Source of the DNA: a bacterium
Lineage (GTDB): Bacteria > CSSED10-310 > JAJRTK01
Length of the DNA stretch: 38,195 bases
Assembly: GCA_024278345.1 (NCBI GenBank)
Contig: JAJRTK010000094.1
Location: 1 to 38,195, forward strand
Direction of reading: 5' to 3'
The position numbers and the translations under genes were made by a program. The number at the start of each line of letters is the position of its first letter. The stretch's first letter is position 1. The notes beneath the pieces were generated by a model. The model was given only the letters and a program-made list of their open reading frames with translations, made no database searches and was not told the origin of the DNA. Below, in pieces: positions 6,893 to 38,150 of this stretch.

Positions 6893-6969
6893 TCCTCTCT
6901 CCTGAAAATTGGGCATCCGTTGGGGCAATCCCAGCGGCCCGCCGCACAAGAAATTGAACAGGATTTTGA

Positions 6970-7144
6970 CCCGGAAATTTCATCAAATCCCTGCTGCGTC
7001 AACGCAATCATCGCAGCCAACAGCGCCCTCCCCGGTCAGGCATCCTCAACGTCGTTCTACTACGCCTCCGGTGCCTGCCTGTCGTCGGACTCGCCGGCTG
7101 CGCTCCTGCGTCGCCTCGCGACTGGATTTGATGAGAAATCCGGG
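6970..7144 (+). repeat. Inverted-repeat intergenic element, copy 1 (MITE-like)
   Basis: The ends are 21-bp inverted repeats matching at 18 positions: CCCGGAAATTTCATCAAATCC at 6970-6990, and its near complement at 7124-7144. The left end and interior align with copy 2 at 30718-30956 (CCCGGAA-T-TC-TCA...CT-CTGCG). The two also share an identical 17-mer, CTACTACGCCTCCGGTG, at 7057-7073 and 30820-30836. No transposase is present. The element lies between divergent promoters. Confidence 0.75.
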
Positions 7145-7250
7145 TTTGACAGGATTCGCAACCTACCCCAATCATGAACCAAACACAATACAATAAAAAT
7201 CGTTCAGTGCTCGCATCTGGGGGCGAGAGCGGACCCAGGGCGATAAAGAG

Positions 7251-7288
7251 GCGAGTGGCGGCGGTCGGAGGGCCGGCGACGGGAGCGG
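7251..7288 (+). repeat. 38-bp GC-rich palindromic element, copy 1
   Basis: It begins GCGAGTGGCGGCGG and ends GAGCGG. It matches the copy at 22365-22402 at 32 of 38 positions, and aligns without gaps to the copy at 16528-16565 over the same length with lower identity. It ends 10 bp before the TTGACT of the histidine kinase promoter. Confidence 0.6.
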
Positions 7289-16440: not shown

Positions 16441-16527
16441 GGGGAATGTCCCTGGGGAGCTTCCACGATCTGGAAAATTGGCTGGTGCTCCGGGCTTGGG
16501 GCGTTGACGACAAGAGGGGTGAAAAGT

Positions 16528-16565
16528 GCGAGGAGCGGTCGCCGGACGGCGGCCGATGAGAGCGG
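16528..16565 (+). repeat. 38-bp GC-rich palindromic element, copy 2
   Basis: It begins GCGAGGAGCGG and ends GAGCGG. It aligns without gaps to the copy at 22365, matching at about 26 of 38 positions. The centre, CGCCG-GA-CGGCG, is a perfect small stem. It is the most diverged of the three plus-strand copies. Confidence 0.45.
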
Positions 16566-22292: not shown

Positions 22293-22364
22293 GGTTGTGT
22301 GATCCGAGGGCGGTAAACCCTGCCCGTGGGCGAAGAAAGGCGAGTGGGGGGAACCGCGCGTAAG

Positions 22365-22402
22365 GCGAGTGGCGGCGGACGGATTGCCGTCGCCGCGAGC
22401 GG
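22365..22402 (+). repeat. 38-bp GC-rich palindromic element, copy 3
   Basis: It begins GCGAGTGGCGGCGG and ends GAGCGG, with an imperfect stem around its centre (CGGCGGACGGA / TGCCGTCGCCG). It is the closest relative of the copy at 7251. A shorter piece, GGCGAGTGG, also occurs just upstream at 22339. Confidence 0.6.
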
Positions 22403-30717: not shown

Positions 30718-30956
30718 CCCGGAACTCTCGTCACATCTCTACTGCGGCAGCCGATCCATCGTTTCCCCCGGCGTCCTCGTCGGCCAGCTCCTCGACGGTG
30801 CGCAGGTGAGTTGCCCCCCCTACTACGCCTCCGGTGGCTGGCCTTCCTGCTCCTTGGTGGAAACGCGCCTCGAACCGCCTCGTGACGATCCGTGATGATC
30901 CTTGGTGGAAACGCGCCTCGAACCGCCTCGTGACGATCCGTGATGAGAGTTCCGGG
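30718..30956 (+). repeat. Inverted-repeat intergenic element, copy 2 (MITE-like)
   Basis: The ends CCCGGAACTCTCGTCA (30718-30733) and TGATGAGAGTTCCGGG (30941-30956) are inverted repeats matching at 15 of 16 positions. The interior shares blocks with copy 1 and copy 3. It also holds a 48-bp perfect tandem duplication near its right end. No ORF of note. Confidence 0.8.
30851..30946 (+). repeat. Perfect 48-bp tandem duplication inside element copy 2
   Basis: Units 30851-30898 and 30899-30946 are identical, each starting TCCTTGGTGGAAACGCGCCT. Identity across both units implies a recent event. Copy 3 of the element has one diverged unit at the corresponding place. Confidence 0.95.
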
Positions 30957-32487: not shown

Positions 32488-33093
32488 CCCAACCTCCCAC
32501 TTTCGAGCTAAACCGCCTAGCGGATCTCACCCGGTAAGCCCGCACTTGTACCTGAAATACAACTTTACCGAAACCAAGGCAACTCACACAAAAAATAGGT
32601 TCCACCACCAAAATTTAGCAAAAACTGCACCAAACCCTGTGATCTGGAACTCTCCTCACGGCTCGTGGCGAGGCAGTCGGGCGCGGTTCCGCCAAGGACG
32701 AGAGTCGAAGCGCAGCGGGAACTCCCCCAAGATGAACAGGCAGCCACTGAAAGGCGTGGTCATGCAACCAGCCGAGGAGCCGACCGACTTGGATGCCGTA
32801 TGGAGATAGTAGCTCCGAACGCTGCGGAAGACCCGCAACGAGATTTCCGGGTGTGAGGCTCTGGCCCCTTCAACCCCCTGGCCGCCGCAAGGTAGCAGTC
32901 TATCCATACCGGTGCAAGCTCTTGGGAGCAACTGCCCACGAACCGACCCGAAGCTCCCACGGATTGGGTGGTGCTCCGGCCCTTGGGCGGTGACTCGCTC
33001 AAGGGAGTTGTTGTCATCAGCATCTATTAGTGTAGCCAATGTAGACGGTCCGGTGGATCGAAGAAAAGGAGGAGAACTTCCCTTGGGCGCTTT
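32488..33093. other. Long intergenic region between the first GT4 gene and the sugar transferase
   Basis: This 606-bp region holds the AT-rich leader of the sugar transferase (32488-32640), where TTGCTA-18 bp-TATTTT on the minus strand is a weak promoter candidate. The inverted-repeat element copy 3 (32644-32851) follows. The remaining ~240 bp (32852-33093) I cannot explain. A 127-codon minus-strand frame across it is not convincing. No tRNA or terminator seen. Confidence 0.5.
32644..32851 (-). repeat. Inverted-repeat intergenic element, copy 3 (reverse orientation)
   Basis: On the minus strand it starts CCCGGAAATCTCGTTGCGG and ends CCTTGGCGGAACCGCGCC, later GCCTCGCCACGAGCCGTGAG, then GAGAGTTCCAG. 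These match copy 2 in the same order. The interior ACGCCT...GTGGCTG block is also shared. The terminal repeats are more decayed (about 10 of 15). Confidence 0.7.
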
Positions 33094-38034: not shown

Positions 38035-38111
38035 CCCCTCATTTTTTGCTTGTGGGACGCATCCAGGTCAAAGACTCCGACAACTGCTTTTTTCTGCTGG
38101 TTGGCGTCCGG

Positions 38112-38150
38112 TCGGGTCGGCGGCAGTCCGTCCGCCGCCCCTCCCCTCTC
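38112..38150 (-). repeat. GC-rich palindrome related to the 38-bp elements
   Basis: On the minus strand GGCGGCGGACGGACTGCCG matches the core of the 22365 copy at nearly every position. GGCGGC (38119-38124) and GCCGCC (38134-38139) form a perfect stem. The flanks differ from the other copies. Confidence 0.45.

Follow-up and report, generated by a model that had tools for sequence, protein, structure and literature searches.

A short dispersed element with IS1380-type ends and a covarying hairpin core in a CSSED10-310 bacterium and other bacterial genomes

The stretch of DNA analysed here, which we refer to as the window, comprises positions 1 to 38,195 of contig JAJRTK010000094.1 (assembly GCA_024278345.1) from a bacterium of the GTDB lineage CSSED10-310. 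A 175-bp imperfect palindrome (Table 1) separates the minus-strand der (EngA) GTPase gene from a plus-strand histidine-kinase gene; it is short, non-coding and devoid of a transposase gene. The first-pass annotation had placed a dispersed element with 21-bp inverted-repeat ends between these divergent genes. Its coordinates proved to be exact, the ends match at 18 of 21 positions, and the 17-mer which it reported as shared with a distant copy (CTACTACGCCTCCGGTG) is present at 7057-7073 and 30820-30836. The element as a whole, and not its ends alone, forms a single hairpin on either strand, with z scores of -6.0 and -7.0 against dinucleotide shuffles on the two strands. Directly outside both ends we located the pentamer TTTGA as a target-site duplication. 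The hexamer AGGATT (6960-6965 and 7151-7156) adjoins both duplications, overlapping the left one by one base; it may be due to chance or represent the trace of an older event.

Other repeats are present in the window. A 159-bp unit occurs twice, head-to-tail and 97% identical, at 1-318, and a second dispersed, GC-rich repeat (AGGCGAGTGGCGGCGG...) was found at 7249-7288, 16526-16565 and 22363-22402, and in inverted form at 38090-38147. Sequence similar to this GC-rich repeat lies near other loci (e.g. L075), and bears no relation to the palindromic element.

Table 1. Coordinates of the element, its parts and its further copies in the window
Feature	Coordinates	Strand	Evidence
Intact element	6970..7144	minus (canonical, better-folding strand)	BLASTN family of ~40 copies; covariance model 185 bits; fold z -6.98 on minus
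Left terminal inverted repeat CCCGGAAATTTCATCAAATCC	6970..6990		18/21 match to right repeat
Right terminal inverted repeat, reverse complement CCCGGATTTCTCATCAAATCC	7124..7144		18/21 match to left repeat
Target-site duplication TTTGA, left	6965..6969		exact 5-bp duplication
Target-site duplication TTTGA, right	7145..7149		exact 5-bp duplication
Apical hairpin GGAGGCGTAGT..ACGTTGAGGA	7043..7069	minus	ranks with the best-conserved segments of the core (alignments A2, A5)
Second copy, C subfamily	30718..30956	minus	covariance model 121.7 bits over 30718-30904
Third copy, degenerate	32643..32851	plus	covariance model 49.2 bits

Copies in the host genome (6.06 Mb in 550 contigs, 87.9% complete) were counted by searches. 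BLASTN with the element gave 40 matches at E<1e-4, in agreement with the dispersed family proposed at first pass; about 22 of these, with 82-97% identity, belong to the A type, and the others are near 70%. A scan with the terminal 16-mer returned 188 sites, against two for a reversed control, and a covariance model constructed from 30 copies and one copy of an Acidobacteria MAG returned 99 matches (E<=0.01), of which three lie inside the window. Several subfamilies (A-D) are apparent by alignment, and most copies are intergenic. In the second window copy the loop is disrupted, and 48 bp of the interior are duplicated in tandem. Certain members are enlarged to 239-402 bp (L064 2079-2477, L068 2303-2704, L053 2268-2651 and L082 2001-2239) by other repeats lodged inside them, some of which are palindromic (e.g. 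GGTAACCGTTCACC...GGTGAACGGTTACC); the host genome seems to be rich in nested repeat families.

Target duplications were counted in 39 elements (38 from the host genome and one from the Acidobacteria MAG), with the boundaries placed at CCCGG...CCGGG. Identical 5-mers occur on both sides of 20 of the 39, compared to 0.37 expected from cross-pairing of the flanks, and no other duplication length was prominent, 2- to 4-mers and 6-mers being found in one or two elements. The target sites in the examined elements resemble YTARA, and YTAG-type targets were observed in other genomes. In addition, an A-type insertion on contig C166 has an empty site on C327, another contig of the same assembly, which matches its flanks without mismatch over 138 nt on the left and 119 nt on the right, and which possesses one CTTAG instead of two. 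The assembly represents a population and these stretches are situated close to the ends of their contigs, for which reason we interpret the difference as polymorphism among cells, or at a minimum among the assembled haplotypes. An IS1380 end (L117, near 1504) and a member of the present family (L084, near 138) each start right at a gene's TAG stop codon, the target being CTAG, and such insertions would therefore be harmless. At L027 (approximately 1502-1679) the element adjoins a lipoprotein/HlyD-like gene, its terminal repeat providing an in-frame ATG (MRYPGLVVLVLLASC), and it may be the source of the start codon of this gene.

Judged by their sequence, the ends, which the first-pass annotation did not recognise, are those of the IS1380 family. 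The A-type end begins with 13 nt (CCCGGATTTCTCA) that are identical to the ends of Nostoc IS1380 elements. Full-length members of this family carried by Nostoc plasmids are bounded by perfect CCCGGATTTCTCACAA ends, the first 13 bases of which are common to the A type, and the IS1380 of Nostoc sp. C057 (L125 1246-3084) combines perfect CCCGGATTTCTCACAA repeats with a 5-bp duplication, AGGGG. The corresponding end in Gloeothece is CCCGCATTTCTCACAA. ISEcp1, another member of the IS1380 family, is flanked by the 5-bp duplication TATGA (PMC2887853).

A transposase with matching ends was looked for and found, as a remnant in the host and in more complete form elsewhere. The sole PF13701 (IS1380-type) transposase of the host genome is a 3' remnant (C239:223-522), whose downstream end, CCCGAATATCTCATGA (...TCATGAGATATTCGGG), agrees with the element end at 14 of 16 positions and is followed by the target-type sequence CTAAA; the sequence inside this end is unrelated to the element. 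Two further insertion sequence ends without a transposase gene lie on host contigs C468 and C275. Neither an intact IS1380 transposase nor a complete IS1380 element was found in the host assembly, which is ordinary for an 88%-complete genome in 550 contigs. Genome G279 encodes a complete transposase (a 476-amino acid reading frame), and the right end, the only end of this IS1380 that was located (CCCGCATTTCTCACCA), matches the G279 MITEs at 16 of 16 positions. The left end of the IS1380 in G212 (CCCGGATAATTCATAA) matches the unusual local MITE end at 15 of 16, CCCGGATAATTCAT being common to both, and in G363 the MITE ends match at 16 of 16 and lie beside a fragmented IS1380. In these three genomes the element ends thus follow the local IS1380 end variant by variant. 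A PF13701 protein was detected in 10 of the 21 other carrier genomes (see below) at E<=0.001, seven of them above the family cut-off. No IS1380 partner was found in the Acidobacteria MAG, and none of the viral contigs searched encodes a relative of the host remnant. As an alternative partner a PF01609 (IS4-type) transposase was considered and rejected, the search having returned one fragment only.

The distribution of the element was surveyed with the covariance model in 386 genomes, taken as one outward draw from the host, at a threshold of E<=1e-5. It is carried by 22 of them (about 1 in 18), namely the host and 21 of the 385 others, which represent about 19 families, all outside the host phylum. 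Most matches are 170-182 nt in length, and some of those across genomes are weak (37-45 bits). Acidobacteria MAG WY3.bin21 is an additional carrier. None of the seven genomes searched from the host phylum contains the element, which points to horizontal spread. Viral contigs searched with the apex, and plasmids searched with two external copies, gave no match.

The terminal repeats are not the same in all carriers. Three copies in G264 are bounded by GAGCCAATTGCAAAAT and flanked by exact 4-bp duplications (ATTC, GATA and TCTT), while one copy in G051 is bounded by GGGCAGTCACAAAAAC with the duplication TTTA. In at least these two genomes, then, the same core lies between unrelated terminal repeats, which suggests that other transposases, or divergent IS1380 ends, move those copies. 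Two copies in G095 are seemingly bounded by CAGACTRTGT repeats, with no convincing duplication. At L131 of G363 the element lies within a 1,058-residue reading frame, which remains open across it, and covers about residues 500-559; with its 4-bp duplication it measures 180 nt, adding 60 codons. The Pfam AprA MT2-like methyltransferase domain matches this frame in pieces, best at residues 549-682. L132 may be a second in-frame case, with no Pfam domain match in support.

The core, of approximately 176 nt, forms one long hairpin in which the helices covary and the purine-rich internal loops and the apex are conserved, a property of the interior that was overlooked in the first-pass annotation. 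Within the host genome, 135 covariation cells were counted compared to 56.5 in shuffled data. When 34 elements representing 20 genomes were aligned, compensatory changes on both sides were evident in 46 of the 49 consensus pairs; the cells with such changes number 410, against 130.9 after shuffling and at most 179 with the partner slid. The covarying helices span the full length, including the ends, which are part of the same stem, and the total length varies little (166-182 nt in the 20 genomes). Motifs conserved at the apex or in unpaired positions are TTCGTnnCGA, AGG, CGGAGGCGTA...TACGTCGAGGA and GCAGnAGA, and the apical hairpin motif of the window element recurs in an Acidobacteria MAG. 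Since compensating changes conserve the hairpin interior across genomes, more than the ends appears to be needed for spread. A peptide-coding core was considered and rejected: the reading frame that crosses the apex is uninterrupted in certain copies (e.g. L083) but is broken in subfamilies A and D. Rfam gave no match in the window at the gathering score, and none over the element in five loci by E-value threshold. A search of the open-access literature found no description of the element, and among the papers listed for sequence-motif queries all were unrelated.

Type II MITEs of bacteria are defined as elements of less than 500 bp with terminal repeats, target duplications, no gene, similarity to an insertion sequence in the ends only, and a stable stem-loop (PMC10969869). 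With ends matching IS1380, 4-5 bp duplications and an interior absent from the IS1380 elements examined, the present element belongs in this class, and from the end matches we infer that an IS1380 transposase moves it in trans. Taken together, it is very probably a type II MITE for which transposases of the IS1380 family (PF13701) provide cut-and-paste mobility in trans, with a conserved hairpin core that appears to be needed for its success. In the mechanism we propose, the IS1380 transposase would recognise the CCCG(G/C)ATnTCTCA... ends of the ~176-bp element and insert it at sites resembling YTAR, with duplication of 5 bp in the host genome and of about 4 bp elsewhere. The interior is a conserved core folding as one long hairpin rather than a leftover IS1380 gene, and this hairpin would be required for the success of the element, either as single-stranded DNA in replication or transposition or as RNA on read-through. 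A bolder version, which we put forward tentatively as a possibility, is that the core is an ancient, independently evolving non-coding module of ~176 nt, distributed among bacterial phyla, which swaps terminal repeats to parasitise whatever transposases are available, its folded form (RNA or single-stranded DNA) being required for propagation.

Perhaps the hairpin acts as single-stranded DNA, through lagging-strand extrusion or as a cruciform, and aids the transposase in pairing the ends or couples movement to replication. We consider this possible, if somewhat doubtful. Covariation which includes the ends within one stem is consistent with it, as is the near-constant total length, which synaptic geometry would predict; however, IS1380 elements do not have the core themselves and need no such hairpin, and a modest bias towards G.U pairs is not predicted for DNA. 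That bias bears on the idea of the core as a regulatory or stabilising RNA, in which a read-through transcript folds on the canonical strand and is processed or bound by a host protein, so that selection acts via host RNA metabolism and mobility merely distributes the copies. Here, of 31 copies, 29 have a more stable fold on the canonical strand than on its complement, by a mean of 13.7 kcal/mol, the consensus energies are -46.7 (canonical) and -27.7 (complement), and strand-neutral pairing includes more G.U than A.C (38:17 and 118:43; 20:8 for pairs found without G.U). This strand bias is modest and favours RNA over a single-stranded DNA form, though not decisively. Base composition, however, accounts for part of the strand difference (z -9.75 vs -8.23), one conserved apical pair and shared ancestry lie behind much of the G.U excess, and orientation relative to neighbouring genes shows no clear bias with simple ORF calls. 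Such an RNA function strikes us as rather unlikely.

Imperfect palindromes are corrected by template switching, and two-sided changes could arise in this manner without any function, one arm being converted to match the other, so that the covariation would be a by-product of mutation. This is improbable, since template switching ought also to erase the unpaired internal loops, and about 20 families retain the CGA, AGG, GGAGGCGTA/TACGTCGAGGA and GCAGNAGA motifs. An integron attC-like site, or an element of REP/BIME type mobilised by a Y1 (RAYT) transposase, would equally be dispersed, mostly intergenic and palindromic, but can safely be set aside in view of the exact 5-bp duplications, the empty site, the YTAG-type targets elsewhere and the IS1380-type ends, all features of DDE transposition, and single-strand Y1 transposition in particular is ruled out by the duplications, which a RAYT system does not generate. 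Of the two readings left side by side at first pass, MITE or REP-like, the former is upheld by the terminal inverted repeats, 5-bp duplications, empty site and numerous copies, and the latter falls on the target duplications and DDE-type ends.

MITEs are usually seen as decayed, genome-specific leftovers of transposons, and to our knowledge each type II MITE family was described from one species or group of relatives. If the reading of the element as an IS1380-mobilised type II MITE with a structured core is true, a non-coding core kept in about 20 families behind different terminal repeats would constitute a separate, long-lived lineage of parasites, and some step of transposition or some interaction with the host would require the folded interior. 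The element represents a new family for genome annotation and for RNA databases.

Among known systems, the closest likeness in kind is to the type II MITEs (PMC10969869), with which the element shares a size below 500 bp, terminal repeats, target duplications, the lack of a gene, end-confined similarity to an insertion sequence and a stable stem-loop; it differs from them in having one structured core of near-constant length with covarying helices, present in about 20 families between different terminal repeats. With the IS1380 family it has in common the end sequence and a 4-5 bp target duplication, but it carries no transposase gene and its hairpin was not found in the IS1380 elements examined. 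The Chunjie MITE of Geobacter uraniireducens, of 178-235 bp and with 38 copies and conserved ends (PMC10969869), resembles it in size, copy number and mostly intergenic placement and could, in a comparison made by description only, be a member of the same family. Like the palindromic elements of Rickettsia it is palindromic, about 150-180 bp long and capable of in-frame insertion into a gene (here at L131); unlike them, it has one or two in-frame cases only, most of its copies are intergenic, and it is flanked by clear target duplications.
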